From the NCBI GenBank assembly GCA_029265615.1, contig JAJUIB010000005.1:62001-126000 (forward strand): 64,000 nt of DNA. Direction: 5' to 3'. The notes under the pieces were generated by a model that saw only the letters and a program-made list of their open reading frames with translations, was not told the DNA's origin and ran no database searches. Positions 44,007 through 61,101 of this stretch are shown here, one piece after another. How positions within the stretch are numbered: the first letter of the stretch is position 1; each line of letters opens with the position of its first letter. A program made the translations under genes and the position numbers. Origin of the DNA: Spirochaetota bacterium. Its GTDB lineage: Bacteria; Spirochaetota; Spirochaetia; Treponematales; Rectinemataceae.

Positions 44007-44992
44007 GCCAGCCCACCGCGCTCCTTCCGTCCTGTGAGCGCCGCACGGCGAGACGGCGCAACTACGGCCCTCTCTACGCGGCGCCCCAGACCCTGTGGCT
44101 CCTTGTGTTCTTCGCCGCGCCGCTTGGCATCATCGTCGCCTACTCTTTCATGCGGAAGGGGCTTTATGGCGGCGTCACCCGGGAATTCTCGCTCGATGCA
44201 TATAGAGCCCTCGCAAATTCTTCGCTTCTCCAGGTGGCCGTTCGCACCCTGCTAGTTTCGCTCACCGCGACGGCTCTTACCCTGCTTGTCGCTCTGCCGT
44301 CGGGGTACGCAATCGCGCGAAGCCGTAACCAGGCAATGCGCCTTTTTCTCGTGATTGTGCCTTTCTGGACTAACTTCCTTGTGCGAATCTACGCCTGGAT
44401 CGCGATTCTCGGCAACGAGGGTTTTTTGAATGACGCGCTCCGCGCGCTCGGCATCGTGGCCGATCCCGTGCAGTTCCTCTATAATCAATGGGCGGTCGTC
44501 CTCGTCCTCGTATATATGTATCTTCCCTATGCGATACTTCCGCTTTTTTCGACGATCGACAAATTTGACTTCACCCTCCTTGAGGCTGCACGAGATCTTG
44601 GCGCGACGAAGCTTGCGGCGCTCAGGCGCGTTTTGCTGCCGAACATCAAGGGGGGGCTCGTCACGGCGGTTCTTTTCACCTTCATTCCCATTTTCGGCGC
44701 CTACGCGGTGCCGCTCCTCGTGGGGGGCAAGGACTCCTACATGCTCGGCAACATCATCGCCGACCAGGTGACCAAGACGCGTAACTGGCCGCTTGCCTCG
44801 GCGATCTCGATGACGGTCACCGCGCTCACGGGGCTTGCGGCGCTCGTTTTCCTCTATCGTATGCGAGAGCATGCTGAGCCATCTCTTGGCGAAGAGCTGC
44901 TACCCGAACCGCATGCGGCGCTCGCTACGTTTTCTGATGCCTCGCATGGAGCATCCGGCTCCTTCACCGGCCTTGCAGGAGGCGCGCGATGA
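44003..44992 (+). CDS. potB: Spermidine/putrescine ABC transporter permease
   Basis: A 329-residue inner-membrane permease with six helices. The coupling (EAA) loop is LLEAARDLGATKLAALRRVLLPNIKGG, the part that contacts PotA. The N-terminal TM1 (LWLLVFFAAPLGIIVAYSF) and the FWTNFLVRIYAWIAILGNEG segment are typical of PotB. A C-terminal ~45-residue hydrophilic tail (from about residue 285) is longer than usual. Start in ATGA overlap with potA. Confidence 0.9.
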   Translation: MSQPTALLPSCERRTARRRNYGPLYAAPQTLWLLVFFAAPLGIIVAYSFMRKGLYGGVTREFSLDAYRALANSSLLQVAVRTLLVSLTATALTLLVALPSGYAIARSRNQAMRLFLVIVPFWTNFLVRIYAWIAILGNEGFLNDALRALGIVADPVQFLYNQWAVVLVLVYMYLPYAILPLFSTIDKFDFTLLEAARDLGATKLAALRRVLLPNIKGGLVTAVLFTFIPIFGAYAVPLLVGGKDSYMLGNIIADQVTKTRNWPLASAISMTVTALTGLAALVFLYRMREHAEPSLGEELLPEPHAALATFSDASHGASGSFTGLAGGAR

Positions 44993-45966
44993 GTGATTCT
45001 TATGCAGGCGGCAATTCTCGCGCTGTGGCGGAAAAGGCGGCGCCGCGACCTCATGTCGCGCCGCGACCTCATGTCGCGCTGCGTCCGCTCTCCGCGCGGC
45101 GGAATGCCCCCGCACAGCGGAGGGCCTCCGTACAGCGGAGGGCCTCCGTACAGCGGAGGGCCTCCGTACAGCGGAGGGCCTCCGTACAGCGGAGGGCCTC
45201 GTTTTCTTCCTTTGTCTATTGGGCGACGATCGTCTTTCTCTTCACGCCGCTTTTCGTTCTCGTCGCATATTCCTTCAATGCATCGAAGGGTGGCTCGTGG
45301 AGCGGATTTTCGCTTGTCTGGTACGAGCGACTCATCGTGGCCTCGCCTGAGCTGTGGAAGGCCTTTATGAACAGCGTTCTTGTAGCGCTCGGATCGGCGA
45401 GCTGCGCGACGTTCCTTGGTACGCTCGCCGCGGTGGGCACGAGTCGCTTTTCATTCCGGGGACGTGGCGCGACCAAGGCGCTTGCCTTCGTTCCGATGAT
45501 TCTCCCTGAGATCGTCGTCGGGGTGTCGCTCCTCGTTTTTTTCTCGGGAGTGGGACTCAAACTCGGCATGTGGACGGTGCTTATAGCCCACACAACCTTC
45601 AACCTGCCCTTCGTGTATCTCCTCGTTTCCGCCCGACTCGAGGAGTTCGATGCTTCCGTGATCGAAGCGGCGAGGGATCTTGGCGCAAACGAGTGGCAGA
45701 CACTCGTTAAGGTCATTGTCCCTATGGCACTGCCCGGCGTTGCCTCGGGCTTTCTCACCGCGGTGACCCTCTCCCTCGAGGATTTCGTCATCACCTTTTT
45801 TGTCTCCGGTCCCGGCTCGACGACGCTCCCGCTCTACATTTACTCGATGATCCGGTTTGGCGTTTCGCCGGTGATCAATGCGCTTTCGGCCGTCATGGTC
45901 GCAGGGACGATCGCACTTGTCTATCCACTCCGTGGATTTCTCAAGTCCTTCGCCTCCCGCGCATGA
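44989..45966 (+). CDS. potC: Spermidine/putrescine ABC transporter permease with repeat-expanded N-terminus
   Basis: A 325-residue PotC. After a cytoplasmic extension of about 75 residues, the permease starts at FVYWATIVFLFTPLFVLVAY. The coupling loop is VIEAARDLGANEWQTLVKVIV, and the helices fit PotC. The extension is built of in-frame tandem repeats: APRPHV twice, then five consecutive QRRAS blocks (four QRRASV plus one ending in F). Normal PotC proteins have only a few residues before TM1, so this extension is an insertion that grew by replication slippage. It is strongly basic and would sit in the cytoplasm. Confidence 0.9.
   Translation: MSDSYAGGNSRAVAEKAAPRPHVAPRPHVALRPLSARRNAPAQRRASVQRRASVQRRASVQRRASVQRRASFSSFVYWATIVFLFTPLFVLVAYSFNASKGGSWSGFSLVWYERLIVASPELWKAFMNSVLVALGSASCATFLGTLAAVGTSRFSFRGRGATKALAFVPMILPEIVVGVSLLVFFSGVGLKLGMWTVLIAHTTFNLPFVYLLVSARLEEFDASVIEAARDLGANEWQTLVKVIVPMALPGVASGFLTAVTLSLEDFVITFFVSGPGSTTLPLYIYSMIRFGVSPVINALSAVMVAGTIALVYPLRGFLKSFASRA
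45040..45075. repeat. 18-bp tandem duplication at the potC 5' end
   Basis: Two tandem copies of an 18-bp unit encode APRPHV twice, directly before the larger minisatellite. Confidence 0.8.
45115..45201. repeat. 18-bp minisatellite inside potC
   Basis: Four exact copies plus a partial fifth of CAGCGGAGGGCCTCCGTA, all in frame. Each unit contains the small palindrome CGGAGG-G-CCTCCG. The array encodes the QRRASV repeats. Confidence 0.92.
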
Positions 45967-47233: not shown

Positions 47234-47503
47234 TTACTCCGGCATGTCTTCAAGACCGCCTGCGTTCGTGACGTCGGAAAATCCAGCGGCCTTGAGCATG
47301 CGTGCCGCCATCGCGGATCGCGCCCCCGAGGCGCAATAGAGGACGACCGGCCGATCTTTGGGTCCGATTTCAGACATCCTCGATGCAAGTTGGTTCACGG
47401 GGATGTTGAGGGCGCCCTTATAGTGTTCGTCGGCGAATTCGGCGGGGGTACGGACGTCGACGATCGCCGCGCCATTCTTGATTTTCTCGATCAAAGTGCT
47501 CAC
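47234..47503 (-). CDS. Single-domain rhodanese
   Basis: An 89-residue rhodanese (PspE/GlpE type). The conserved start AAIVDVRTPAEFADEHYKGALNIP leads to the active-site loop VLYCASGARSAMAARML with the catalytic Cys in CASGARS. It carries persulfide or selenide sulfur for transfer to a cytoplasmic acceptor. No signal peptide. It lies 65 bp downstream of a flavoprotein whose own fused rhodanese domain has lost its Cys, so this small protein may supply the active site in trans. Confidence 0.88.
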   Translation of the reverse strand: MSTLIEKIKNGAAIVDVRTPAEFADEHYKGALNIPVNQLASRMSEIGPKDRPVVLYCASGARSAMAARMLKAAGFSDVTNAGGLEDMPE

Positions 47504-47568: not shown

Positions 47569-49227
47569 TTAGTCGGTCTCGTCATGGTAGCCGGGTTCGA
47601 GCCGCAGGCTACGCATGCCGCCAGAGATGTAGCGGACACGTTCAAATCCCGCCTGGACAAGCTGGCGCGCCGCAAGGTGGCCTTCGAATCCCGTTTTGGA
47701 CGCGACGATGAGCGGCAGAGTCCGGGGTACTTCGGCAAGGCGGTCTCGCAGCTCGTCGAGCGGTATGTGGATTGCCCCCGGGGCGTGGCCCTTCCCGTAC
47801 TCTCCGTAGGTCGAGACATCGAGCAGGCGGGCTCTTCCCGCATTGAGTTCGGCCAGCGCCTCCACCGCGCTTAGGGTGGGGGAGTAGCCGGACATCGCGT
47901 TCGCGGCGGCGAATGCTGCCATGTTGAGGATGTCATTCGCATAGTTGTAGGGCGGCGCATAGGCAAGGTCGAGTTCGCCGAGCTCGTCGACGGAGATTCC
48001 GCCCATGATCGCAGCGGCGACGACATCGATGCGGCGTTCGGCGCCCGATTTTCCGAAGGCTTCCGCGCCGAGGATGCGGCCTGACCCTGTGTCGTAGACG
48101 AGTTTGAGCGAAAGCTCCTCGTAGCCGGGCATATAGGAGACATGGTTGCCCTTGTGGATGGTGACGGCGCCTGCGGCGAAACCGGCCTCACGTGCCGCTT
48201 TTTCGGACAGGCCCGTCTGTGCGAAGGTGTAATCGACTGCCTTGAAGACGCTTGTCCCGAGGGCACCGCGGTAGCGCATGTTGCCGCCGAGCGCGTTGGT
48301 CGCCGCGATGCGGCCCTGCCGGTTCGCGGGGCCCGCGAGGGGGATGCGCACCTTTTTCCCGTCGACGATGCGCGTGACTTCGATCATGTCGCCCGCGGCG
48401 AAGATGGCCGGATCGCTCGTTGCAAGCCGCTCGTCGACCGCAAGTCCGCCCGAAGGGCCGATGATGAGCCCCGCGGATTTCGCAAGATCGGTGTTCGGCC
48501 TGACGCCCGCCGAGACGAGCACGAGCTCGGCGGGGATGCGGGAGCCGTCGTCGAGGACGATCTCCTTCCGCGGTGCGTCGATCGTCTTCACCGAGCGACC
48601 GAGCAGGACGCGCGCGCCCGCCTCTGCAAAAGCGGCGCCGATCATCGCGCCGAAGTCTCGGTCGGCGGGCGGCATGAGGTGATCGGTGAGTTCGACAATG
48701 GTCACGGCGATACCGCGCTTCAAAAAGGCTTCCGCAGATTCAAGCCCAATGAATCCGCCGCCGACGACAACGGCGGTCTTCGGCTTTTGCTCGGCGATGT
48801 AGGCGTCGATCGCATCCATGTCCGGAATGGTCCAAAGCCGGAAGACATGAGGGGCTCCCAGACCTTCGATCGGCGGCATAAAGGGGCTTCCGCCCTGCGC
48901 GAGGATGAGAGCGTCGTAGGGAAGGCTTGTTTCTCCCTCGGGCCCCCGCACCTTAAGCTCTTTTTCCGCGCGATCGATGGCGATAGCCTCGGTGTCGAGG
49001 AGGACCTTCACGCGGTAGCGTGCCTCGAACCCCTCAGGGGTTTGGAGAATGAGGGCGCTTCGCTTTTTGACATCGCCGGAAATGCGGTAAGGGAGACCGC
49101 AATTGGCGAAGGATACATAGGGGCCACGCTCTACGATGGTGATCTGTGCAGTTTCATCGAGCCGTCGTGCACGCGCTGCGGCCGTTGCACCGGCAGCGAC
49201 GCCACCGACAATGATAATTTTACGCAC
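47569..49227 (-). CDS. CoA-disulfide-reductase-like flavoprotein fused to an inactive rhodanese domain
   Basis: A protein of about 552 residues. The N-terminal ~445 residues are a pyridine-nucleotide disulfide oxidoreductase of the CoADR/NADH-oxidase type: FAD motif IIIVGGVAAGATAAARAR, the single active-site Cys in SFANCGLPYRI, NAD motif VVVGGGFIGLESAEAF and FAAGDMIEV. The last ~100 residues are a rhodanese domain; its active-site loop reads LIVASKTGFEG, where family members have Cys at the Ser position. Start GTG 49227 (MRKIIIVGG) is preferred, with AAAGGAG upstream. Relatives reduce CoA disulfide or polysulfide. The AT-rich promoter carries a perfect palindrome. Confidence 0.8.
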   Translation of the reverse strand: MRKIIIVGGVAAGATAAARARRLDETAQITIVERGPYVSFANCGLPYRISGDVKKRSALILQTPEGFEARYRVKVLLDTEAIAIDRAEKELKVRGPEGETSLPYDALILAQGGSPFMPPIEGLGAPHVFRLWTIPDMDAIDAYIAEQKPKTAVVVGGGFIGLESAEAFLKRGIAVTIVELTDHLMPPADRDFGAMIGAAFAEAGARVLLGRSVKTIDAPRKEIVLDDGSRIPAELVLVSAGVRPNTDLAKSAGLIIGPSGGLAVDERLATSDPAIFAAGDMIEVTRIVDGKKVRIPLAGPANRQGRIAATNALGGNMRYRGALGTSVFKAVDYTFAQTGLSEKAAREAGFAAGAVTIHKGNHVSYMPGYEELSLKLVYDTGSGRILGAEAFGKSGAERRIDVVAAAIMGGISVDELGELDLAYAPPYNYANDILNMAAFAAANAMSGYSPTLSAVEALAELNAGRARLLDVSTYGEYGKGHAPGAIHIPLDELRDRLAEVPRTLPLIVASKTGFEGHLAARQLVQAGFERVRYISGGMRSLRLEPGYHDETD

Positions 49228-49251
49228 GCTATCCGCTCCTTTGGTGCTGAT

Positions 49252-49280
49252 AATATATATCAAAAACTATATATAGTCAA
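49252..49280 (-). promoter_or_regulatory. Promoter with palindromic operator before the CoADR-like gene
   Basis: Minus strand: TTGACT (49275-49280), 17-bp spacer, TATATT (49252-49257). The perfect 12-bp palindrome ACTATATATAGT (49266-49277) overlaps the -35 box, a natural repressor site. Confidence 0.6.
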
Positions 49281-49377: not shown

Positions 49378-50169
49378 CTAGCGGTAACTGTGGAGGCCGG
49401 GGAGAAGGTAGTTCACCCCAAAAAAGGTGAAAAGCGCGGAGAGAAAGCCGAGCACGCAGACAAGGGCGGGGAGTTTGTCCTGCCGTTTGCGGGTGAATCG
49501 GAGATGCAAATAGGCAGTGTAGACGAGCCAGGTAACAAGGCCCCAGGTCTCCTTGGGATCCCATGACCACCAAGCGCCCCAGGCTTTTTCTGCCCAAATA
49601 GCGCCAAAGACAAGGGCGCCTGCGGTGAAGAAGGGATAACCGAGCGCGGTCGCCGTGTAGGTGATACGATCGTAGTCCGCCTTTTTCGCTTCGTTTTTCC
49701 CGAGGAGAAAAGCGAGAGAGGCGACGAAGGCTGCTACGAAAAAGGCCTCGCCAATGAAGGTGAAGGCGACGTGAAGGATAAGCCAGCCTGAGCGAAGGGC
49801 CGGGATCGGCGCGAGTGCCGCTTTGGGCGCAAGCGGCGAGTTTGCGAGTGCAAGGAGAACGGCCGCTACCACGGTGCCGCCCGTCGCGATGAGCGGAAGC
49901 CGTGGAAGGCGCGATTGTGAGCGATAGACGAAGAGCAGTATCGACACCGCCGCGGCGTAGAAGACGAGCGACTCATAGGTGCCGGTGAGCGCGGGGAAGC
50001 CTATCGCGACACTCCGTGAGACGGTCGTTGCACCGAGGAGGAGGGCTGAAATGAGAATGAGCCATCGCGAAACAGGTTCTTCGCGCCTTTCTTTTTTGAA
50101 GGCGAAGGCCGCTTGGAGCGCGGCCGCCGCGAGGAGGAGCACAAAGGCAAGGGTAGGGAGGTAGTTCAT
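49378..50169 (-). CDS. ccsA: Cytochrome c biogenesis protein CcsA (ResC)
   Basis: A 263-residue membrane protein with about eight helices. The heme-handling WWD motif is WGAWWSWDPKETW near residue 195, with flanking conserved His residues (ILHVAFTFIG). With ResB it forms system II cytochrome c synthetase, which exports heme and attaches it to CxxCH motifs outside the cytoplasm. Its start overlaps the resB stop by 4 bp. The operon is divergent from an 11-heme cytochrome c gene that needs this machinery. Confidence 0.92.
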   Translation of the reverse strand: MNYLPTLAFVLLLAAAALQAAFAFKKERREEPVSRWLILISALLLGATTVSRSVAIGFPALTGTYESLVFYAAAVSILLFVYRSQSRLPRLPLIATGGTVVAAVLLALANSPLAPKAALAPIPALRSGWLILHVAFTFIGEAFFVAAFVASLAFLLGKNEAKKADYDRITYTATALGYPFFTAGALVFGAIWAEKAWGAWWSWDPKETWGLVTWLVYTAYLHLRFTRKRQDKLPALVCVLGFLSALFTFFGVNYLLPGLHSYR

Positions 50170-51119
50170 GGGGTGACATCCTTGAGCTTGCGGATAAAGG
50201 TGGCGAAGATGCCCAGCGCACTGAGGAGGAGGCCTGCGAGCACGATAGGGTAGCCCGGGTCGACGACCGCTTCAAGGCCGGATATGTCGCGATTTTCGAT
50301 CGCTGCGACGACAAAGGGGCCGAGCGTGTCGCCTGCTAGCACCTTGCGCACCGAAGGTTCGGCATCGCGCGTCTTAATGCGTACGACTGCCTTGCCGCTT
50401 CCATCGTCGGGGGCCATGAAAAAGACCGAAGTGCCGCCAGCTTCGAACTCCTCGCCCTGGGCAAGGCTTCGCTGGACCTCGGGCCCCTCTGCGCCCGGCA
50501 TACGGAGCACGAGAAGACGTTCGACCTCGTGCGATACCTGGTAAATGGAAATCGCTCCGACCTTAAGCGGCGCATTGACGCGGATCGGGAAGTTCGCGCG
50601 GTCCGGCTTCCCCTCTTTGTTGAGAAGGGCGACTTCGCTCGTCCATTCGCGTGGGCGGCCATCGGCGTAGGCGAGGTATTCAAAGCGCTCGAGGCGCAAG
50701 AGCCGGCCATCGGGGAGCTCGACGGCATCGCCTTCGGCAAGACGCACCGCGCCCTCTTGCCTGCCTGAGAAGGTCATGATCGCGCCGACGACGAGGATCA
50801 TAAGGCCCAGGTGGAGGATGTCCGGTCCGTGGCGCCGCCGCTCCTTTTTTTTAAGCTCGTTAAGGAGCCGCGTCATGGTGCAGGCGGAGAGATTTGCGAA
50901 AAAAAGAAATGCAGGGAGGATGAAAAGCCAGGACCGAAAGAAGCTCGTAAAGCCCGAGCTTACCACAAGATCGGCGATGAGCCGTGGATAGCGGCTTGCA
51001 TAGAACTCAGGCTCCCGCCCCTGGGGGACGAGGGTCGCAAGAATGCCCATCACCGCCATATACACGATGAGGCCGATGGCAAGGCGCATGGATCGCAGCC
51101 AGGTAAGGATTTTTTTCAC
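50166..51119 (-). CDS. resB: Cytochrome c biogenesis protein ResB
   Basis: A 317-residue protein with three N-terminal helices, a large periplasmic domain and a C-terminal helix. SMRLAIGLIVYMAVMGILATLVPQG is the typical ResB opening, and HLGLMILVVGAIMTF another conserved helix. GTG start at 51119. It is the first gene of resB-ccsA and has its own TTGACA promoter facing away from the cytochrome gene. Confidence 0.9.
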   Translation of the reverse strand: MKKILTWLRSMRLAIGLIVYMAVMGILATLVPQGREPEFYASRYPRLIADLVVSSGFTSFFRSWLFILPAFLFFANLSACTMTRLLNELKKKERRRHGPDILHLGLMILVVGAIMTFSGRQEGAVRLAEGDAVELPDGRLLRLERFEYLAYADGRPREWTSEVALLNKEGKPDRANFPIRVNAPLKVGAISIYQVSHEVERLLVLRMPGAEGPEVQRSLAQGEEFEAGGTSVFFMAPDDGSGKAVVRIKTRDAEPSVRKVLAGDTLGPFVVAAIENRDISGLEAVVDPGYPIVLAGLLLSALGIFATFIRKLKDVTP

Positions 51120-51294: not shown

Positions 51295-52533
51295 ATGAAA
51301 CGGTCAGCTTCCGCGCTCGCGGCCCTCGCGCTTGCCGGCTTCGGGGTGCTTGGCGTCCTTGGCGCCGGCGCCGCCGAATCGTCTTGCGTGAAGTGCCATA
51401 CGAATGATGCGACCATAAAGTCGCTGTTCGTGCCGCCTGCGCAAGGCTCGTCCGAGGGCGAGGGCTGAGCTGGCGCTCCTCCCCCGGTCCGGGCGGATGA
51501 ACTGTACAAGGGCTTCGTTGTCGACAAGGCCCTCATTGGAAAAGATCCTCACCTCACGGCGGACTGCGCATCCTGCCACAAGGGAACGTCTGCGGGGACG
51601 ACCAAGACCGAGGCACATAAGGGCCTCGTGAAGCGTCCTTCCGACGATCCTGCAAGCTGTGCGAGTTGCCATGGGGGCATCGCTAAGACCTACAAACTGT
51701 CGCTCCATTATTCGACCGCCGGCATGAAGTCGGGCGTTAGGCCGCGTTTTTCCGCTGCCGAGGCAAAGACCTACGATGCCGCAGTGTTCGAGCAGTCCTG
51801 CAGGTCCTGCCACGCATCCTGCGGCGACTGCCATGTGAAGAGTCCCGTCGTCTCGGGTGTCAATCTCGGGCTTATGGCCGGGCATAAATTCGTTCGCAAG
51901 GACGAATCGAAAACCTGCGCCCTCTGCCACGGTGGCCGCGTGTACCCCGAATTCACGGGCGAATACGGCGGCAACCCCGATGTGCACTATCAAAAAGGCA
52001 TGAGCTGCGTGGATTGCCACAAGGGATCCGAGCTGCATGCGAGCCTCGGCGCCCAGGCCGACCGCCGTTCGGTGCCCGACAAGCCAAGCTGCGCCGCCTG
52101 CCATCCCGCAGGCTCCGAGAAGACGGACAAGGCCAAGGAGGCCCACGCCGACCATGGCGACAAGGTCTCCTGTTCGGCCTGCCACGCCTCCTCGAGTTAT
52201 CGGGGTTGCGCCTCGTGCCATCTTGGCGAAGGAGCCACCTCGAGTCCGCAGTTTGTCATCGGGGAAAACCCACGAAAGCCGGGGCAGATAACGACGCTCA
52301 GGCTCGTGCCGACGGTGCGTGACACGTTCAAGAAGGCCGGCATCGCGCAAGGGAACTACGATGCCTTGCCGAACTTCTGGGACACGGTGCCGCACAACAC
52401 ACGCAAGCGCACGGACCGCACGCGCGACTGCGGATCCTGCCATGCCGAGCAGGCCAATTTCCTAAGCGAAGAGGGGCTGCCCTCTGGCGGCTCCGAGGCG
52501 AATAAGCGCCTCATCTTCAAATTCTCGTACTGA
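51295..52533 (+). CDS. 11-heme c-type cytochrome with in-frame UGA (putative selenocysteine)
   Basis: Read through the TGA at 51466-51468, this is a 412-residue exported protein. Residues 1-26 form a signal peptide (MKRSASALAALALAGFGVLG). Eleven CxxCH heme-binding motifs are visible, for example SSCVKCH, ADCASCH, ASCASCH, KTCALCH and RDCGSCH. The TGA is codon 58, between heme motifs 1 and 2. The frame is unbroken on both sides, so no frameshift is needed. A SECIS-like hairpin follows the TGA at the right distance, and the window has selA, selB, selC and selD. Stopping at the TGA would leave only a one-heme 57-residue stub. It is divergent from resB-ccsA and followed by a periplasmic rhodanese. 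Confidence 0.8.
51466..51497 (+). promoter_or_regulatory. UGA codon and SECIS-like hairpin of the cytochrome gene
   Basis: After TGA (51466-51468), the hairpin 51477-51497 pairs TCC-t-CCC with GGG-c-GGA around a 7-nt loop CCGGTCC. The loop holds GGTC, starting 18 bases after the UGA; in E. coli fdhF, GGUC starts 19 bases after. The unpaired T at 51480 sits where fdhF has its bulged U. This is close to the SelB-recognised bacterial SECIS. Confidence 0.7.
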
Positions 52534-52555: not shown

Positions 52556-53458
52556 ATGAAGAAGTTTCTTGCTGTCCTTCTCCTTGCGGCCTGCCTTGCG
52601 CCGTTCGCGTTCGCAGCCGACATCGCGCCATTTGTCGATGCCTCTTGGCTCGAGGCGAATCTTTCGAATCCGCGCCTCGTCATCCTTGACATGCGCGCCC
52701 CTGGTGACTACAAGGCGGGCCATGTGCCGGGCGCTTCGAGCGTCCTCGGCTCCACGATCTATGTCGCCAAGGGCGAGCTCAAGAACGAGGTGCCCGAGGC
52801 TGATGACTTGAGCGACGTCCTCCAGGCGGCCGGCGTCAAAGCCGATTCGATCATCGTTGTCGTCGAGGCTGACGGCTCGCGCATCGCCTGGGCTACTCGC
52901 GTCGCCTGGACTCTCAAGTACGCCGGCCTTGCGAATGTCGGCATTCTCGATGGCGGGTACAAGGCCTGGCTTGCCGCCGGCAAGCCCGTTTCGACCGACA
53001 TCACTCTGAAGAAGGGCGATTACACGGTCAAGAAGTACGTCTATGCATATTTCGCCGACAAGGCCTATGTGCTCAAGGCGAGCAAGGCCCAGATTGTCGA
53101 TGCACGTAGCTACGACAGCTATTTCGGCCTTGCACGGCAGGCTTTTGTCGCACAGGCGGGACACTTCCCGGGCGCCTTCTCCCTGCCGTACAACTGGATC
53201 ACCACGCCTGAGGGCATGGTGCGGCCCAAGGCGGAGCTCGAGGCGATGGCCGCGAAGCTCGGCCTTAACCCGAAGACCGAGACCATCGTCTACTGCGATT
53301 CAGGCGTTCTCTGCACCTCGTGGTGGTGGGTGTTTTCTGAGGTCCTCGGCTGGACCAATGTCCGGAGTTTTGACGGCTCGAGCCAGGTGCTCACTGCCGA
53401 TGCGACGCTCAAGGCCGCCGATCCTGCGGTCAAGTATGTGACGCACACCTGGCGCTAA
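52556..53458 (+). CDS. Periplasmic tandem rhodanese (thiosulfate-sulfurtransferase-like)
   Basis: A 300-residue exported protein with a signal peptide ending AFAADIAPF at about residue 20. Two rhodanese domains follow. The first (VILDMRAPGDYKAGHVPGA) has no Cys at its loop (VVVEADGSRIAW), so it is the usual inactive half. The second has the active loop VYCDSGVLCTSWWW with C247 and C253, and arrives after IVDARSYDSYFG. It would move sulfane sulfur or selenium in the periplasm. It lies 22 bp after the cytochrome, with AAGGAG before its ATG, so the two are one operon and probably one pathway. Confidence 0.88.
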   Translation: MKKFLAVLLLAACLAPFAFAADIAPFVDASWLEANLSNPRLVILDMRAPGDYKAGHVPGASSVLGSTIYVAKGELKNEVPEADDLSDVLQAAGVKADSIIVVVEADGSRIAWATRVAWTLKYAGLANVGILDGGYKAWLAAGKPVSTDITLKKGDYTVKKYVYAYFADKAYVLKASKAQIVDARSYDSYFGLARQAFVAQAGHFPGAFSLPYNWITTPEGMVRPKAELEAMAAKLGLNPKTETIVYCDSGVLCTSWWWVFSEVLGWTNVRSFDGSSQVLTADATLKAADPAVKYVTHTWR

Positions 53459-53531: not shown

Positions 53532-53771
53532 TCACGAGACGCGTTCGATGCGGTCGAAGGGAACGGCTGCGTTTAGAAGGAGCGTCGCTACGGCCTCCGC
53601 GGCGGCCTCGTCGAGCCTGAGGGCGGCTCCGCAGTCGCTCGAGAGCGAGCGCGGGGTCGGCACAAGCCGCGCGCCGGCAATACCCGCATCGCGCGCCACG
53701 CGCTCAGCGCGGAAGGCAGCCGCGCTCGTGAAAAAGAGGACGTAGGCGAAGGGGGGATGGGTAGGGTTCAC
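53532..53771 (-). CDS. DUF3343 putative Se/S carrier protein
   Basis: A 79-residue protein starting MNPTHPPFAYVLFFTSAAAF. It has the DUF3343 hallmark RLVPTPRSLSSDCGAALRLD with one conserved Cys, which is proposed to carry selenium or sulfur. In many genomes this small protein travels with selenium-metabolism genes. Here it is the last gene of selD-yedE-yedF-cysteine desulfurase, and its start overlaps the desulfurase stop by 4 bp. Confidence 0.8.
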   Translation of the reverse strand: MNPTHPPFAYVLFFTSAAAFRAERVARDAGIAGARLVPTPRSLSSDCGAALRLDEAAAEAVATLLLNAAVPFDRIERVS

Positions 53772-54970
53772 CGCGAGCGCTCCCGCTTCAGGACCTGAGC
53801 AAGCGAATCGAGCGCGTAGTGCAGTGCGTCTTCATCGACGTCTCGCCCGGGCGCGAAGCGTATCGCGCCGTCCGGATAGCTCCCTAGAGCGCGGTGCGCG
53901 CGCGGCGCGCAGTGGAGTCCGACGCGGCAGAGAACGCCGAATTCGTCGTCGAGCGCGAGCGCGACAGCGGCGGGATCGGCGCCTTCGACCGTAAAGGATA
54001 CAAGTCCAATACGGCGGGCCTCGGGACCGGGGCCGAGTATTCTTAAGCCGCCGATACGACACAGGCCCTCGATGAGGAGTCGCGACTTTTCCGCTCCGCG
54101 CTCCTCTTCCGCGTCAAGGCTCGCCGCGCGGAGCAGGGCCACGCCTGCCCCGAGGGCCACTATGCCTGGCGGGTTGGGCGTGCCCGCTTCAAAGCGGTCA
54201 GGGAGAAAGTCGGGCTGCTCCTCGCTCTCGGATCTGCTGCCGGTTCCGCCGCGTCGCAAGGGGATAAGCAGGGCGGGATCGATTTCCGCGCCGAGCGCAA
54301 GCCCTCCTGAGCCCTGGAGGCCGAGAAGTCCCTTGTGTCCCGCAAAGGCGAGAAGCGCGTTAGGCGCTTCGGCAAGATCGATGGGCAGGTGCCCGACAGC
54401 CTGGGCGGCGTCGACGACGAGCATCGCGTCCGCCTCACGAGCCGCCTCCGCGGCGGCGCCGAGCGGCGCGATAGTGCCCGAGACGTTGGAGGCAAGGGTA
54501 AGGAGGCCGAGCACGCGTCCGCGGCATTGCTCGGCGGCCGTGCGAAGCGCGGCTACGAAGGCGTCGAGGTCGAAGGCTCCCGATGCATCAGGCGGCGCAT
54601 GCACCACATGAACGCCCTCGTGAGCCAGGGCTGAGATGACGCGCGCAGAAGCGTTGTGAATGAGCGGGTCGGCGACAACGACGTCGCCGCGCCTAAGGAG
54701 GCCGCGCAGGGCGAGGTTGAGCGATTCAGTCGCCCCCGAGGAGAAGGCAATGCGCGAGGGGTCCTTGAGGCCGAAAAGCGCCGCAAGCCCCTCGCGCACC
54801 GCGCATAAATTTCGCCCCGCCGCGAGCGAAAGGCGGTGCCCCGCGCGTCCAGGATTGCCGCCTGAGTCGGCTAAGTGCCGCGTAAGAGCAGCAAGCACCT
54901 CTGGTGGTTTCGGCCAACTCGTCGCGGCGGCGTCGAGGTAGACCACCTTATCGTTCGCGGGGGGCGCCAT
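53768..54970 (-). CDS. Cysteine desulfurase-family aminotransferase, selenium-associated
   Basis: A 400-residue class V PLP enzyme. VVYLDAAATSWPKP at the N-terminus matches the selenium-linked desulfurase subgroup (TIGR01977-like). The PLP lysine is in FAGHKGLLGLQGSGGL; LVVDAAQAVGHLPID binds the cofactor. The late loop CRVGLHCAPRAHRALG carries the Cys that would hold persulfide or selenide. Start 54970 has AGGAATCTGAAC upstream and follows the yedF stop by 2 bp. It probably supplies selenium from selenocysteine or sulfur from cysteine to the YedF/DUF3343 carriers for SelD. Confidence 0.82.
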   Translation of the reverse strand: MAPPANDKVVYLDAAATSWPKPPEVLAALTRHLADSGGNPGRAGHRLSLAAGRNLCAVREGLAALFGLKDPSRIAFSSGATESLNLALRGLLRRGDVVVADPLIHNASARVISALAHEGVHVVHAPPDASGAFDLDAFVAALRTAAEQCRGRVLGLLTLASNVSGTIAPLGAAAEAAREADAMLVVDAAQAVGHLPIDLAEAPNALLAFAGHKGLLGLQGSGGLALGAEIDPALLIPLRRGGTGSRSESEEQPDFLPDRFEAGTPNPPGIVALGAGVALLRAASLDAEEERGAEKSRLLIEGLCRIGGLRILGPGPEARRIGLVSFTVEGADPAAVALALDDEFGVLCRVGLHCAPRAHRALGSYPDGAIRFAPGRDVDEDALHYALDSLAQVLKRERSR

Positions 54971-54972
54971 GT

Positions 54973-55209
54973 TCAGATTCCTGCGGCGGAGATGATTATC
55001 CTCCACCCGTCGGGGGCGTTGTCGCGGATCTCGGCGGCGCGGCCTTCGCGCGAGGCAAGGCGTGCGACGTTGTCCCTGCTCGTTCCGTTGTCGACGAGTA
55101 CCTCGACGCTACCCCCTTTCGCGCGGACAAGGGCAGCCTTGGCACGCATGACCGGCTCGGGGCAGGCAAGACCTCGGGCGTCGACGACGATGCTCGGTGT
55201 TGTTTCCAT
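54973..55209 (-). CDS. yedF: YedF-type TusA/SirA-like sulfur/selenium carrier
   Basis: A 78-residue TusA-fold protein. The motif DARGLACPEPVMRAK carries the persulfide-forming Cys in C-P-x-P. Start 55209 is chosen because AAGGAG lies 8 bases upstream. The short form lacks the C-terminal DsrE-like half of longer YedF proteins; the separate DUF3343 gene may replace it. Its place between yedE and a cysteine desulfurase in a selD operon points to selenium delivery. Confidence 0.82.
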   Translation of the reverse strand: METTPSIVVDARGLACPEPVMRAKAALVRAKGGSVEVLVDNGTSRDNVARLASREGRAAEIRDNAPDGWRIIISAAGI

Positions 55210-55234
55210 ACAAGTCACTCCTTCTTTTAACCAT

Positions 55235-56344
55235 TCATGCCGCGCTTGCGCGCTCCCTGAACCCTAATCCGATCGCCAGCGTGAGCACAAGGCCTGCGAT
55301 GACGGCGGCTGGGCCGTAGGGCGAGGGACCGGCCGCGCTACTTGCAAGGTTGAAGTTGTGCGATATGGCCGCACCGAGGATCATGCCCACGACGAAGACC
55401 CCCGCGTCGCCATCACCCTCGCCTGAAAGGAATATCTGCCTTCCGGGGCAGCCGCCTGCGAGCGTGAAGGCGAGTCCAGAGAGCGCCATGCCCCCGAAAT
55501 TCCACACACCGTCAGAGTGGGCGATGGGCTGGCCCGCGAATCCGGGATGAAAGCGCCCTGTAGCGAGGTTCACGATAAGGGCAGAAACAAAGAGCGCCGC
55601 AAGGCCCAGAAAGAGGCGCGCATCGCGGAAGAGGACTAGGTCGCGGAGCGCTCCCACTGTGCAGAAGCGGCTCCGTTGGGCGAGGAAGCCGACCGCGAGG
55701 CCGATCGCCGCTGCAACGAGCTCGCTCGCCGCCTCTGCGCCCGGACCCTTCACGCTTCGAAAGATCGGACCGGTCGGATTGCCCGCCGCGTCGCGGCCGA
55801 AGAGCGGCGAGAGCGCGAGGAGAACAAGGAGCGCGGCCGCGAGGAGGGGCATGACGAGGCCGAGGGACGCGGGCTGCGGATAGTTCCGGCCGAGGCTGTA
55901 TCCGCGCTTTAAGAAGACAATGCCGACAAGGATGCCGGCGAACAGTCCCGCAAGGCCGAGGAGCGCATTCCAGTCACCGCCAGCGAGCCTGAGCCATGCG
56001 CGCCAGGGGCAGCCAAGGAAAACGAGGGCACCGATCATCGCGAGTGCGCCGAGGAGGAGCCTTACAAAGGGCGAAGAGCCCGAACGGGGGCGCCACTCGC
56101 CTGCAAGGAGGGCGGCGGCGAAGGAGCCGAGGATAAATGCCGGTATCTCTGGCCTTAAGTACTGGACGGAACTGGCGCGATGAAAACCCAGTGCGCCCGT
56201 GAGGTCGCGGGTGAAGCAGGCGACGCAGATACCCATGTTCGCGGGATTTCCGAGCACCGAAAGGAGCGCAGCCGCGCTTCCGATAAAGGCGCCGACAACG
56301 ATTATGCCCGGTGCAGTTGAGAAAAGCGATGCTTTTTTGCCCAT
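55235..56344 (-). CDS. yedE: YedE-type selenium transporter (YeeE/YedE family)
   Basis: A 369-residue membrane protein with about nine or ten helices. The conserved GNPANMGICVACFTRD (residues 31-46) followed by GALGFHRASSVQYLRPEIPA is the mark of the selenium-associated YedE group. Later GCPWRAWLRLAGGDWNALLGL and GGCPGRQIFLSGEGD carry the paired Cys/Gly motifs lining the YeeE pore. YeeE itself takes up thiosulfate; by neighbourhood this member is predicted to move selenium. The gene lies between selD and yedF. Confidence 0.85.
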   Translation of the reverse strand: MGKKASLFSTAPGIIVVGAFIGSAAALLSVLGNPANMGICVACFTRDLTGALGFHRASSVQYLRPEIPAFILGSFAAALLAGEWRPRSGSSPFVRLLLGALAMIGALVFLGCPWRAWLRLAGGDWNALLGLAGLFAGILVGIVFLKRGYSLGRNYPQPASLGLVMPLLAAALLVLLALSPLFGRDAAGNPTGPIFRSVKGPGAEAASELVAAAIGLAVGFLAQRSRFCTVGALRDLVLFRDARLFLGLAALFVSALIVNLATGRFHPGFAGQPIAHSDGVWNFGGMALSGLAFTLAGGCPGRQIFLSGEGDGDAGVFVVGMILGAAISHNFNLASSAAGPSPYGPAAVIAGLVLTLAIGLGFRERASAA

Positions 56345-56412: not shown

Positions 56413-57540
56413 TTAGCCGGATGCGTCAACGACGCACGCGTCAACGACGCACGCGTCAACGACGCACGCGTCAACGACGCACGCGTCAACGACGCGAATA
56501 CCCGGCCTATTCACACGCGGCAAGACGCGGCCGACTACGCTGGCCTTTACGCCCGCCGCGCGAAGTTCGCGCATGCATGTCTCAAGGCGCTCCTCGCGGA
56601 TTCCTGCAAGGAGTCCGCCTGAGGTCTCCGGGCTGAAAAAGAGCGCCCGTTCGACCTCGTCGAGCGCCGGGGCGAATTCGACCCGGCTTGCGTAATAGGA
56701 ACGATTCCGCAGGGCCCCTCCGGGAAGGGAACCCTCGGCGGCAAGCCTTCGCGCCCCGGGAAGGAAGGGGAGGGAGCGCGCGAACACCTCGAGCGCAAGA
56801 CCGCTTTTGTCGGCGAGCTCAAGGGCATGCCCCGCGAAGCCGAAGCCCGTCACATCGGTGGCAGCTCGCACGCCGGCATTTTTGAAGGCGCGCGCCGCGT
56901 CGCGATTCAGGCGTTTCATCGAGGCGACCGCTTCCGCGATTTCACCCGCCTCCGCGCGATCCTCCTTTGCTGCCGTCGTGACGACACCCGTGCCGAGTGG
57001 CTTTGTGAGGACGAGTAGATCGCCTTCCCTAAGCGCCGTCTTGAGGAAGAGCTCGTCCGGTCGCGCGATGCCCGCCACGGCCATCCCGTACTTTGGCTCC
57101 GGGTCCATGATTGTGTGGCCACCCGCCACGGGACAGCCCGCTTCAAGCGCCTTTTCCGCTCCGCCGCGCAGAATGTCCGCGACCGTCTCCTCCTCGAGAT
57201 CGGGGGGGAATGCCGCTAAGTTGAGCGCGAGTATCGGCTCGCCGCCCGTCGCGTACACATCGGACAGCGCGTTAGCCGCTGCAATGGCGCCAAACGCGCA
57301 CGGATCATCGACGACGGGCGTGAAGAAATCCGCCGTGAAGATCAGCGCCTGTGAGTCGCTCAATGTGTAAACGGCCGCGTCATCGCCTTCTTCAAGACCG
57401 ACAAGGAGGCCGGGCGCGTCAGTGCGCGGAAAAAGCTCGGTAAGCGGACGCAGGACCTGCGCCAGGGCCGCGGGGCCCGTTTTTGCCGCTCACCCAGCCG
57501 CCGAGCACATCGACGTCAGTCTTATTCTCTCTCGTTCCAT
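56413..57540 (-). CDS. selD: Selenide, water dikinase with selenocysteine at position 17
   Basis: A 375-residue SelD that makes selenophosphate from selenide and ATP, the selenium donor for selenocysteine. The true start is ATG 57540, giving MERERIRLTSMCSAAG, then TGA at 57490-57492, then AAKTGPAALAQVL. The catalytic residue of E. coli SelD is Cys17; here it is the UGA, so it is Sec17, followed by the catalytic Lys in AAK. The body contains GDDAAVY, FTADFFTPVVDDP, FGAIAAANALSDVYATGGEP and AGGHTIMDPEPKYG. Stopping or starting after the UGA would lose the active site. The C-terminus ends in a repeat-encoded VVDAC array. First gene of selD-yedE-yedF-desulfurase-DUF3343. Confidence 0.92.
56423..56496. 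repeat. 15-bp minisatellite at the selD 3' end
   Basis: Four exact copies and a nearly complete fifth of GCGTCAACGACGCAC. Each unit has the small inverted repeat GCGTC-AAC-GACGC. In frame it encodes VVDAC repeats and adds four Cys to SelD. Confidence 0.92.
57447..57463 (-). promoter_or_regulatory. SECIS-candidate hairpin in selD
   Basis: GGCGC pairs with GCGTC (one G-T wobble) around loop AGGTCCT, nearly the same loop as the E. coli fdhF SECIS (AGGUCU). It lies 27-43 bases after the UGA, further than in fdhF but within the accepted bacterial range. A second hairpin, GGGCC-CCGC-GGCCC, lies closer but lacks GU in its loop. Confidence 0.5.
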
Positions 57541-57696: not shown

Positions 57697-57705
57697 ATGA
57701 GTAGT

Positions 57706-57794
57706 GGAAGCTGATGGGGCCTGGTGGCTCTCGCGGTCTTCAAAACCGTCGGTCGCGCCTCGCGCGGCGGCAGGTTCGATTCCTGCCTCTTCCG
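57706..57794 (+). tRNA. selC: tRNA-Sec (anticodon TCA)
   Basis: An 89-nt selenocysteine tRNA. The 6-bp D-stem GGGGCC/GGCTCT with a 4-nt TGGT loop is the Sec-specific short-loop D-arm. The anticodon loop CTTCAAA has TCA. A long extra arm pairs GTCGCGC with GCGCGGC. The T-arm is GCAGG-TTCGATT-CCTGC. The acceptor pairs GGAAG with CTTCC, but the next positions (C, T) mismatch, so the usual 8-bp stem is weak. No CCA is encoded. It is 33 bp upstream of selA and co-transcribed. Confidence 0.9.
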
Positions 57795-57826
57795 AGAACT
57801 CTTATATAAAGGTGGGAATAAGCCCC

Positions 57827-59227
57827 ATGCCCGAACCGCAGGCTTACCGTAGCCTCCCGCAGGCGGGGCGTGTCCTTGAATCTCCCCTGCTATCACCTGC
57901 GCTTGCCGCACTGCCGCGCATCATTGTTGTCGAAGAACTCCGTGCCGAGCTCGATACGGCGCGAAAGGCGCTGGCCAAAGGCGTTCCGGCTCCATCGCTC
58001 GAGGAGACGGCACGGCGCGTTGCCCGCCGCTGTGCGACACTGCTGCGGCAGGGGATCATCAAAGTCCTGAATGGAACAGGAGTGCTCCTCCACACAAACC
58101 TCGGCCGCAGTCCTCTTGATGCGGCGGATTGGAGGCGCGCCGAAGCGGCAAACACGGGATATTCGAGTCTCGAATTCGATCTTGCCTCGGGGGAGCGGGG
58201 GCCCCGGGGCGGGCTTGCGCCGGAATTCGCATCCCGGCTTGTCGGCACGGAGGCGGCGCTCATCGTCAACAACAACGCCGCCGCGCTCCTTTTGCTACTC
58301 ACGGCCTGTGCTCGGGGGCGCGAGGTACTTGTCTCCCGCGGCGAGGCGGTGCAGATCGGCGGCGGATTTCGCGTGCCCGAAATTCTTGCGCTTTCGGGCG
58401 CCCGTCTTGTCGAGGTCGGAACGACCAACGTGACGACGGTCGACGACTACCTTTCCGCCCTCGGGCCCGAGACCGCGCTTATCCTCCGCGTCCACACCTC
58501 CAACTTTGCGCTGCGAGGCTTCGTCGCTTCGCCCTCGGTGGCCGAGCTCGCCGCGGCAGTGAAGGGCCGCGTTCCGCTCATCGTCGATCAGGGATCGGGC
58601 GCCTATCGCTCAGGATGGCCGGGTGAGACTAGCCTCGCCCAGCTTGCGCGCCAAGGCGCCGACTCGCTCTGCTTTTCCTGCGACAAGCTCCTCGGGGGGC
58701 CGCAGGCGGGCGTTGTCGCGGGCCGCCGTGATCTCGTCATGGCTTGCGCGCGTCATCCGCTCTATCGCGCCTTCCGGCCGGGGAAGACTGTCCTCAGTCT
58801 GCTCGAAGCCCGCCTTGCGCGGGCGCTCGACGGCGTTCCTTCCGCCGCCGCGGCGCCGGATCCCGCAGATCTCGAAGCCTTCGGGCGCAGAGTTCTTGCC
58901 GCGCTTCCGTCCTGCGAGGCGCAGATTGTGCCGAGCGAGGGGGCCTACGGAGGCGGTTCGACGCCCGACGAGTCCTTCCCTTCGCGGGCGCTCGTGTTTT
59001 CTTATGAGCCTGAGGCCTTAAGCCGCGCCCTGCGTTCAGGCGACCCCCCACTTGTCGGCCGCATCGAGGGGGGACGGCTCCTTGTCGATCTCGCCGCCCT
59101 CGTGCGCGAAGACCCCCATCTCGTCGCGCGCGTCATCGCCGACGCCCTCGTCCGGCTGGCTACTGGCAGTGTCGGCCCCGGGGCGCCCCCTATCGCAGGG
59201 GAGGAGGGGGGTGCGCCATGCCGGTGA
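57827..59227 (+). CDS. selA: L-seryl-tRNA(Sec) selenium transferase
   Basis: A 466-residue PLP enzyme that turns Ser-tRNA(Sec) into Sec-tRNA(Sec) with selenophosphate. The N-terminal domain has LPRIIVVEELRAELDTARKA. VLNGTGVLLHTNLGRSPLD is the SelA signature. The PLP lysine lies in LCFSCDKLLGGPQAG. Start 57827 has AAAGGTGGGA upstream; an earlier in-frame Met overlaps the tRNA and is not used. The stop overlaps selB's start by 10 bp. Confidence 0.95.
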   Translation: MPEPQAYRSLPQAGRVLESPLLSPALAALPRIIVVEELRAELDTARKALAKGVPAPSLEETARRVARRCATLLRQGIIKVLNGTGVLLHTNLGRSPLDAADWRRAEAANTGYSSLEFDLASGERGPRGGLAPEFASRLVGTEAALIVNNNAAALLLLLTACARGREVLVSRGEAVQIGGGFRVPEILALSGARLVEVGTTNVTTVDDYLSALGPETALILRVHTSNFALRGFVASPSVAELAAAVKGRVPLIVDQGSGAYRSGWPGETSLAQLARQGADSLCFSCDKLLGGPQAGVVAGRRDLVMACARHPLYRAFRPGKTVLSLLEARLARALDGVPSAAAAPDPADLEAFGRRVLAALPSCEAQIVPSEGAYGGGSTPDESFPSRALVFSYEPEALSRALRSGDPPLVGRIEGGRLLVDLAALVREDPHLVARVIADALVRLATGSVGPGAPPIAGEEGGAPCR

Positions 59228-61101
59228 TCGGTAGCGCGGGGCACGTCGACCACGGAAAGACCGCCCTCGTCGTTGCTCTCACCGGCATCGACACCGACCG
59301 CCTCCCTGAGGAGAAGGCGCGCGGAATGACGACGGACTTGGGTTTTGCACGCTTTGCCGCCCAGGGGCTCGGCGAGGTCGGTGTGATCGATGTGCCCGGC
59401 CACGAACGCTTTATCCGCAACATGGTGGCGGGCGCGACCGGCGTTGATGGAGCTCTTTTTGTCGTGGCCGCTGACGACGGCTGGATGGAGCAGAGCGAGC
59501 GGCATCTTGAGGTGCTCGCCGCGCTTGAGGTGCCCGTCCTTGCGGTCGCGGTGACCAAGGCGGATCTTGTTGCCGAGGAAAGACTCAAGGCGGTCGGCGA
59601 GGACGCTGCTCGCCGCATTGCCTGCGCGACGGGGGGGCTACCGGCCTGGTTCCCGGTCGACTCTCCCGCGGGGCGTGGCATCCCCGAGCTCCGTGCCGCG
59701 CTTGCCGCCCGCCTTCGCGCCCTCCCCCAGGGCGAGGACGCGCGCGGTGCCCACCTCTTTGTCGATCGTGCCTTCACCCTCCGCGGCGTCGGCCTTGTGG
59801 TCGCAGGGACGCTTCGGGGCGCGGCTCTTTGCCCCGATGACGAACTCGTCCTCCACGGAGCGGAAGAGGCACTTCGCGTCCGCTCGCTCGAGCGGTATGG
59901 GAGACCTGCAGAGGTCGCGCTTCCTGGCGATCGCGTCGCGCTCGCTCTCGGTCGGCCGCGCGCCGAAGTAGCACGCGGAGACCTCCTCGCCGCCCCGAGC
60001 CTCAAGGTGGAAGTCGCTCGTTCGCTGTACCTTGCGCTTGCGCCACGCTGGGTGCAGTTTCGTCCCCGTCCCGGTAGCGAGCTCGAGCTCGCTGTCGGTG
60101 CGGCGCACCGCATGGCCCGCGTCTGGCCTGCGAGCGTCAGGGGTTTCGTGCGTCTTGAAGTCGAAAAGCCGCTTCCCCTGCTTCCCGGGGCGGCGGTCGT
60201 CCTCCTCCGCTCAGGCGGTGCGGACATCCTTGCCGCAGGACGTTTTGTCTGCTCTGGCGGCGCCTCGCGCGAGGGCCGACGTGAACTCGAGGCGGCCCTC
60301 GCGCGCGCGGCCACCTTAGTCGGCGAAGAGCGCAGCCTTCTTGCACGGGCCTGCGAGCTCGAGCGATGCGGGTTCCTCGAACTTGAATCCGACGAAGCGG
60401 CATTCGTAGGCTCTAGGCGTTCTGGACGGACAGTCTTTTCTCAGACGACCTTTGCGCGTGCCTGTGCTTATGCGCGAAAGCTCTCAGAATGCCCGGGTGG
60501 TTTCCCCGGGGAGGGCTTTGCCGGAAAGATGGGCCTTCCCGCGGAGGCGGGCCGCAAGCTCCTTGCCCTTGTGGCGGCGGAAGGAGAAGTCGCCCTCGTT
60601 GGAGGCCGCCTTGTTCCCGCGCCCGAGCTGCACAAGGCTGGGGAGGGCGGGGAGGCTCACGGGGCGCCTTTGCGCTCATGCGGTGACGAGGGCCGGGTGC
60701 CTCTCGCTTCGCGTCCCCTCCTTGCCCACCTTTGCGCCGCAGGCGCGCGGGGCTTCGATCTCGAACTCGAGGGTGGCGCAGGCACGCGCAAGGAGCTTTC
60801 CCCACTTTGCTCCCTCGGCCTCGTTGTTGCGCTCGACTCGCGGCTTTTTCTCTCGCGCGAGGCCTATTGTGCGCTCCGAGACGCCCTCCTTGCCGGGCGC
60901 AAACCCGGTGATGTGATTCCACTCGCCGAGGCGAAGCGTGCGACAGGGCTTTCGCGCAAGTGGCTCCTGCCGCTTATGAACCGGCTTGGCGACGAGGGCA
61001 TCCTGAGGCGTGAGGGCGAGCAGCGGCGCGTGCTCCGTCTGCCAGAAGAAGTGGCCCCCCGCGAAGCGGAGGCCGAGGGAGCGAAGCGGGGCATAGGCTA
61101 A
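59218..61101 (+). CDS. selB: Selenocysteine-specific elongation factor
   Basis: A 627-residue SelB. The GTPase domain has SAGHVDHGKTAL, DTDRLPEEKARGMTTDLGF, DVPGHERFI and VTKADLV. Domains II-III follow, then four winged-helix domains (from about residue 380) that bind the SECIS hairpin. The last helix, RATGLSRKWLLPLMNRLGDEG, is the usual SECIS-binding wing. It brings Sec-tRNA to UGA codons such as those in selD and the cytochrome. It overlaps selA by 10 bp. Confidence 0.95.
   Translation: MPVIGSAGHVDHGKTALVVALTGIDTDRLPEEKARGMTTDLGFARFAAQGLGEVGVIDVPGHERFIRNMVAGATGVDGALFVVAADDGWMEQSERHLEVLAALEVPVLAVAVTKADLVAEERLKAVGEDAARRIACATGGLPAWFPVDSPAGRGIPELRAALAARLRALPQGEDARGAHLFVDRAFTLRGVGLVVAGTLRGAALCPDDELVLHGAEEALRVRSLERYGRPAEVALPGDRVALALGRPRAEVARGDLLAAPSLKVEVARSLYLALAPRWVQFRPRPGSELELAVGAAHRMARVWPASVRGFVRLEVEKPLPLLPGAAVVLLRSGGADILAAGRFVCSGGASREGRRELEAALARAATLVGEERSLLARACELERCGFLELESDEAAFVGSRRSGRTVFSQTTFARACAYARKLSECPGGFPGEGFAGKMGLPAEAGRKLLALVAAEGEVALVGGRLVPAPELHKAGEGGEAHGAPLRSCGDEGRVPLASRPLLAHLCAAGARGFDLELEGGAGTRKELSPLCSLGLVVALDSRLFLSREAYCALRDALLAGRKPGDVIPLAEAKRATGLSRKWLLPLMNRLGDEGILRREGEQRRVLRLPEEVAPREAEAEGAKRGIG

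Follow-up and report, generated by a model that had tools for sequence, protein, structure and literature searches.

A putative selenocysteine-containing 11-haem cytochrome c family with linked selenocysteine genes in Spirochaetota and other bacteria

Introduction

A stretch of 64,000 nucleotides from a Spirochaetota bacterium (referred to below as the window) carries a multihaem cytochrome gene that is split by a TGA codon near its 5' end. This raises the question of whether the codon ends a protein or is read as selenocysteine (Sec) and, in the latter case, what a Sec residue attached to a chain of haems would do. A preliminary description based on the sequence of the window alone proposed the second reading, which is followed up here by comparison with homologous genes and their neighbourhoods.

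Results

The cytochrome gene and its in-frame TGA

The gene and the elements within it are listed below.

51295..52533, + strand: coding sequence of a predicted 11-haem periplasmic c-type cytochrome with Sec58, 412 amino acids (Pfam Cytochrome_C7 / Cytochrom_c3_2; about 90 homologues)
51295..51372, + strand: predicted signal peptide of about 26 residues, read directly by eye (MKRSASALAALALAGFGVLGVLGAGA-AESSC)
51466..51468, + strand: TGA codon 58, read as Sec (84 of 91 aligned rows have TGA at this column and 3 have Cys)
51480..51497, + strand: apical hairpin of a putative bacterial SECIS element (UCCCCC-GGUCC-GGGCGGA), 11 nt after the UGA (compensatory changes, synonymous-site constraint and different hairpins in remote homologues)

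The TGA at 51466–51468 is the single interruption of the frame 51295–52533 and the same frame is found on both sides of it. The re-reading of the frame thereby confirms that an otherwise continuous signal-peptide gene with 11 CxxCH motifs is split at codon 58 without a frameshift, as first described. The motifs lie at residues 31, 91, 122, 169, 176, 208, 238, 266, 293, 305, and 379, and the protein matches the Pfam models PF14522 and PF14537 over their cut-offs, which places it among the multihaem c-type cytochromes. The terminal stop of the gene is also TGA, indicating that UGA still terminates translation in this organism. Codon 58 lies after haem 1 and before haem 2, in a Gly-rich stretch (G-E-G-U-A/G-G), and there is no resolving Cys beside it (no CxxU), so that the usual thiol/selenol mechanism is not obvious.

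Outside the CxxCH motifs, nine His residues are invariant in the alignment and Met236 is 99% conserved. With nine invariant His for 11 haems, a ligand other than His or an open site may occur at one or two of the haems. An AlphaFold2 model calculated with 42 homologues was of moderate quality (pLDDT 72, pTM 0.65) and weakest around the Sec stretch (52–56) and 168–216. A Foldseek search of the model against the PDB returned nothing, and a sequence search of the PDB returned only short stretches of NrfA/UndA-type cytochromes.

Distribution of the family

The cytochrome was identified in 17 out of 149 relatives, all 17 with the in-frame TGA, and at no fewer than 70 loci within the genome collection. 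In the class that contains Smithella, 65 out of 155 genomes gave a match (E<=1e-30), some of them remote or partial. The homologues come from Spirochaetota, Syntrophia/Syntrophaceae/Smithella, Geobacter sp. OR-1, a Pelobacter metagenome-assembled genome (MAG) and MAGs labelled Bacillota; most of the records are MAGs, and Geobacter sp. OR-1 is not labelled as one. Sequence identity reaches down to about 30–40% in a remote group. Profile searches identified two remote groups, a 13-haem branch (L129–L134) and a third branch entered through L090 (L140–L143, L147, and L150–L153). Several Smithella relatives (L067, L070–L072, L077, L078, and L084) contain 17 CxxCH motifs, the Sec cytochrome being fused to an N-terminal multihaem domain. 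A search of plasmids gave no match.

The codon 58 column in homologous genes

Among the 91 aligned rows, the column of codon 58 holds U in 84, Cys in three, Pro in two, Ala in one, and Trp in one, and no deletion was seen at this column. This TGA is shared by more than 80 genomes from several phyla, and the protein sequence is conserved to either side of it; a sequencing error or a pseudogene was rejected as its source on account of this recurrence. A first alignment had U in 85 out of 92 rows, with GEGE-G-U-AG-APPPVRAE as the neighbouring sequence. That alignment set a Gly of L090 under the Sec column, an assignment discarded in favour of the larger alignment including the remote branches, which places a Cys of L090 there.

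The three Cys rows are L090 (GGGG-C-GG), L140 and L141 (GEC-C-GG in both). A selA match is absent from the genomes of L090 and L140 and present in that of L141. The Cys rows are nested among Sec rows in the tree, where some branches are long, and at least two changes are needed to explain them. The Ala row (L128, codon GCA; position 1072 onward, + strand) comes from a genome with no selA match but retains the downstream hairpin, which fits a loss of Sec that was recent and did not lead to Cys. In the Trp row (L129; 5700–7370, + strand) TGG stands for TGA in a genome that has selA and an intact hairpin; either a genuine substitution or an error of assembly would account for this. Pro is found in two paralogues (L083 and L088) that share their genomes with U copies (L063 with L083, L031 with L088). 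Both Pro paralogues adjoin a multihaem/b-type cytochrome gene. The presence of Pro, Ala, and Trp in four rows shows that the position is not absolutely fixed, and some members of the family may work, or may have decayed, without Sec or Cys.

The preliminary description had expected Cys or UGA at this exact position in homologues if the codon specifies Sec, and had named a random residue, a deletion or resequencing to TGG or TGC as contrary outcomes. The expected pattern was observed (84 UGA and 3 Cys out of 91), and the contrary outcomes are largely excluded by the recurrence of TGA in more than 80 genomes and the lack of deletions, the four Pro, Ala, and Trp rows making up the rest.

A conserved hairpin downstream of the UGA

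Throughout the main group the stem stands at a fixed distance from the UGA. The six pairs of the stem (positions 15–20 with 27–32 after the UGA) are formed in 93.5% of cells among 28 distinct sequences, and the covariation score of the stem was reached in none of 500 shuffles. Both sides have changed in two of the stem pairs, in L044, L046, and L062 (TCCGGC...GCCGGA) and in L051 (TCCTCC...GGAGGA), and some of the compensating changes in these homologues alter amino acids too. Synonymous positions are constrained over the same region: the third position of codon +4 is T in 96% of sequences (15% expected from the usage of the same genes) and those of codons +8 and +9 are G in 100% (44% and 30% expected), with a return to normal beyond about +11. 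The remote branches have an entirely different sequence and carry a hairpin at the same place, with a loop that is mostly GUU or similar (TGAGGAGGAGCTGTGGCTCCGTTGGAGCCA); one example is GTGGCTCC-GTT-GGAGCCA, at the same distance from the UGA.

Folding of the 45-mer with the hairpin, which had been suggested as a check, was not significant: the window sequence alone reaches −13.6 kcal/mol (z = −0.2), and 83 out of 200 shuffles fold as well. Since the window hairpin alone is no better than chance, the argument for the hairpin rests on the comparative data. RNAalifold alone gave a partly different outer pairing and shares the apical stem. Of the hairpin first described, the GGTC loop after the TGA is present, but the mismatched T in the stem is not supported, as T51480 pairs with A51497 in the structure shared by the family; the irregularity in the window hairpin is a bulged C on the 3' side.

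Linkage to the selenocysteine machinery

Genes for the synthesis and insertion of Sec and for selenium metabolism follow the cytochrome.

53768..55006, − strand: class-V aminotransferase, cysteine desulfurase / selenocysteine lyase-like (TIGR01977 and SclA-like, both below cut-off)
54973..55218, − strand: TusA/YedF-like sulfurtransferase
55235..56344, − strand: YedE-family putative selenium transporter (TIGR04112, far over cut-off)
56413..57540, − strand: SelD selenophosphate synthetase with its own in-frame TGA (Sec17) at 57492–57490, catalytic motif G-U-A-A-K
57705..57795, + strand: tRNA-Sec, anticodon TCA
57827..59227, + strand: SelA, start position predicted (TIGR00474 over cut-off)
59218..61101, + strand: SelB (TIGR00475 over cut-off)

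The full machinery had been placed 4–9 kb away, and selD, tRNA-Sec, selA, and selB were indeed found about 3.9–8.6 kb downstream. The C-terminus of SelD contains a short tandem repeat (VVDAC four times, in 15-bp units) with no obvious function. The SelB proteins of the window's clade have their best curated-profile match over the first 264 positions only, and their C-terminal part, which binds mRNA, appears divergent, as would be compatible with a SECIS specific to the clade.

The co-occurrence of the cytochrome with the Sec pathway was assessed with selA as the marker; selB was unsuitable, since its profile picks up EF-Tu-like proteins in every genome as well. A selA gene is present in 16 out of 17 relatives with the cytochrome and in 20 out of 132 without it (Fisher p = 9e-11), and within the window's own family in six out of seven with the cytochrome and none of 23 without it. 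The only exception among the 17 is G022, where the cytochrome lies on a 6-kb contig and selA was not detected. Among further UGA-bearing genomes, 34 out of 36 have selA. In L018 (7173–11494, + strand) the cytochrome, rhodanese, tRNA-Sec, selA, and selB form one compact block, and in L005 and L008 the tRNA-Sec lies less than 1.5 kb from the cytochrome. Formate dehydrogenase alpha is the usual client of the Sec pathway. None was found in the window's genome, from which this client thus appears to be absent.

Rhodanese and other neighbours

The genes next to the cytochrome are the following.

52556..53458, + strand: predicted exported tandem-domain rhodanese, 3-mercaptopyruvate-sulfurtransferase-like, catalytic Cys in the second domain (C247)
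50166..51119, − strand: ResB-like cytochrome c assembly protein (system II), divergent (PF05140)
49378..50169, − strand: CcsA/CcsB-type cytochrome c assembly protein (TIGR03144 over cut-off)

According to a profile search, which replaced an ORF-based count (41 out of 64 downstream) that missed overlapping ORFs, a gene for a predicted exported two-domain rhodanese lies directly downstream on the same strand in 60 out of 75 distinct homologues. Three of the other 15 loci have it upstream. The catalytic Cys of domain 2 is retained in 50 out of 51 aligned sequences, as in active rhodaneses. Assembly genes of the ResB/CcsA type neighbour the cytochrome in the window, in L018–L021, and in several Smithella relatives. 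The 17-haem fused members (L067, L070–L072, L077, L078, and L084) are preceded by NrfD-like and TtrB/NrfC-like (4Fe-4S) genes. Other neighbours are a multihaem protein with a b-type part in some members and, in the 13-haem branch, a formate-dehydrogenase-gamma-like gene that was assigned by eye.

Elsewhere in the window, the gene at 47569–49263 (− strand) encodes a flavoprotein resembling CoA-disulfide reductase, with a fused rhodanese domain in which the catalytic loop (VASKTGFEG) apparently lacks Cys, and beside it at 47234–47503 lies a single-domain rhodanese with Cys. An ABC permease-like ORF at 44989–45966 (+ strand) repeats RRASVQ near its N-terminus in 18-bp tandem repeats.

Comparison with known systems

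The existence of another, already described Sec multihaem cytochrome, and the place of the window gene in a separate and widely distributed family, were both overlooked in the preliminary description. ExtKL of Geobacter (NF040886, GSU2937-2936) is a Sec-containing five-haem cytochrome encoded beside a rhodanese and a porin (Fujita et al. 2007, PMC1914089; ExtI paper of 2018, PMC5877670). The two systems have in common a multihaem c-type cytochrome with one predicted Sec, a rhodanese-like protein in the cluster (ExtH in Geobacter) and an anaerobic metal- or chalcogen-reducing host. They differ in that ExtKL has five haems with the Sec after the haem domain (PMC1914089, PMC5877670) whereas the window protein has 11 haems with the Sec between haem 1 and haem 2. 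The window protein did not match NF040886 at E<=1, the model was absent from the 25 families with the most frequent matches among 42 members, and Geobacter sp. OR-1 carries the family of the window yet has no NF040886 match. The neighbourhood of the window gene includes a rhodanese but one below the ExtH cut-off, and the porin and ExtM-S were not seen there. Membership in ExtKL was rejected based on the profile, the haem number and the position of Sec; the family appears to resemble ExtKL in outline (rhodanese and Sec multihaem cytochrome) without having been found to belong to it.

Octahaem tetrathionate reductase (TIGR04315) is likewise a multihaem protein, acts on sulfur oxyanions and is annotated with Sec in some entries, according to the passages found of a 2026 review (PMC13188914). 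It has eight haems compared with 11 in the window, and its model was matched by only two out of 42 members (best E 9e-4), so the family was not assigned to it. Besides ExtKL, the same passages name a Sec-annotated octahaem protein and a GSU2204-type CXXCH protein; an 11-haem family does not occur there. The rhodanese shares two rhodanese domains and an active Cys in the second with 3-mercaptopyruvate sulfurtransferase and ExtH-type proteins, but is predicted to be exported and scores below the NF008557 and NF040901 equivalog cut-offs. The NrfD-like and TtrB/NrfC-like genes beside the 17-haem members recall the Psr/Phs/Ttr/Nrf reductases (NrfD/PsrC with a 4Fe-4S subunit), but no molybdenum catalytic subunit was recognised among the recurrent neighbours identified.

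No NCBIfam model was over its cut-off for the family among the matches listed, and no papers on a Sec cytochrome in Smithella or a "selenocytochrome" were found. The cytochrome probably belongs to an ancient selenoprotein family that is unnamed in the libraries searched. This family is apparently undescribed, widely distributed and separate from ExtKL, absence from the library and the papers searched being no proof that a family is unlisted.

Discussion

The reading favoured here is that the gene encodes an exported 11-haem cytochrome in which UGA58 is translated as Sec with the help of the SECIS and the neighbouring SelA, SelB, SelD, and tRNA-Sec, and which would serve as a quinol-fed chalcogen reductase; as a whole this is highly probable. 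The recoding signature of the UGA, the family, the SECIS, the operon with the rhodanese and the linkage to the Sec genes are established computationally. Export and haem loading are predicted from the sequence, and the electron route and substrate are proposed from the neighbouring genes. Electrons from the quinol pool would reach the haems by way of partner modules (an NrfD/PsrC-like and 4Fe-4S pair, or a b-type cytochrome), which adjoin the gene in some relatives, and would leave at Sec58, whose Gly-rich surroundings between haem 1 and haem 2 are probably mobile. The selenolate would take the outer chalcogen atom of the substrate, forming a selenosulfide or selenyl intermediate that would be re-reduced by the haems, and the Sec cytochrome would take the place of the molybdenum catalytic subunit. 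The exported rhodanese would most likely deliver or prime sulfane sulfur, in the form of persulfide from thiosulfate or polysulfide, which would then be reduced to sulfide. Taken together, the neighbouring genes point to the chemistry of sulfane sulfur or a related chalcogen with quinol as the electron source, and sulfane-sulfur reduction is tentatively suggested by these neighbours as the function of the cytochrome. The link to the reduction of selenium, tellurium, arsenic or sulfur species drawn in the preliminary description is a plausible suggestion.

The Sec reading of codon 58 put forward in the preliminary description is strongly supported by UGA in 84 and Cys in three out of 91 rows, the constraint on the SECIS and the linked Sec genes, and comparative sequence data make it almost certain that codon 58 specifies Sec. 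Standard gene callers would split the gene at this TGA, and a GTG-started ORF (51628–52533) exists that could represent a separately started protein, or a pseudogene, behind a real stop. Such programmed termination or frame decay is extremely improbable, as a product from 51628 would lack the signal peptide and hence haem attachment, and as TGA is found in more than 80 genomes over several phyla with conservation on both sides, a constrained SECIS and Cys in genomes without selA. The TGG in L129 might point to a UGA read as another amino acid, such as Trp by suppression or a changed code, but the same gene ends in TGA, the Sec machinery is linked, the SECIS is conserved and the recurrent substitute is Cys rather than Trp, so that this explanation has next to no likelihood.

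The role of the residue leaves more room for alternatives. Sec58 might be a haem-iron or structural ligand rather than a catalytic nucleophile, in a protein that is a plain electron carrier: there are 11 haems and nine invariant non-motif His, with Met236 and Sec58 as candidate ligands, no Cys adjoins Sec58, and Pro, Ala or Trp is tolerated in a few members. Cys is an uncommon distal ligand in multihaem chains, however, and takes the place of Sec where selA is lacking; a rhodanese as the partner speaks for chalcogen chemistry, and Sec, being costly, is usually kept for catalysis, which together render the ligand role quite improbable. Alternatively, the same selenoprotein might act on a selenium or tellurium (or arsenic) oxyanion, as an analogue of the ExtH-ExtKL system. 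Geobacter sp. OR-1, an arsenate respirer, has a member of the family, and the window is dense in selenium-metabolism genes (YedE, SelD, and SclA-like), although these are needed for Sec synthesis anyway. A rhodanese likewise accompanies a Sec multihaem cytochrome in the Geobacter ext cluster, in which an extI mutant loses selenite/tellurite reduction (PMC5877670). The window rhodanese matches ExtH below the cut-off (E 1.5e-17) and the cytochrome weakly matches ExtM/ExtN/ExtO-type models, but the latter matches may reflect shared haem motifs only, and no porin (ExtI) or ext-like cluster was recognised beside members of the family. An oxyanion as the substrate is rated as rather unlikely, though reduction of selenite/tellurite is the nearest rival to that of sulfane sulfur.

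Within the favoured reading of a quinol-fed chalcogen reductase, the family might form a new respiratory class in which Sec is wired straight to an 11-haem chain, with neither a molybdenum cofactor nor a resolving thiol, and in which persulfide sulfur comes from the exported rhodanese and the resulting Se-S adduct is reduced by the haems. This proposal is speculative and, in its full extent, unlikely to hold. In a stronger form of it, Sec58 may be the distal ligand of one haem, which would to our knowledge be the first natural selenolate–haem centre. On this proposal, the spirochaete family of the window may also retain the whole Sec pathway chiefly for this protein.

The cytochrome adds an apparently undescribed selenoprotein family that is distant from ExtKL, the one named family of Sec multihaem cytochromes, and suggests that Sec and a haem wire beside a rhodanese are a recurrent design. 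Ordinary annotation cuts the gene at the UGA, and the protein is then easily overlooked as a functional unit. In spirochaetes the cytochrome is tightly linked to selA, selB, and tRNA-Sec, which makes it a likely reason why those genomes keep Sec. For Smithella, Geobacter, and uncultured spirochaetes, the cytochrome offers a candidate for sulfur or selenium respiration that is open to testing. It is found in many sediment bacteria, where it probably mediates selenium-based electron transfer to a sulfur- or selenium-containing compound.
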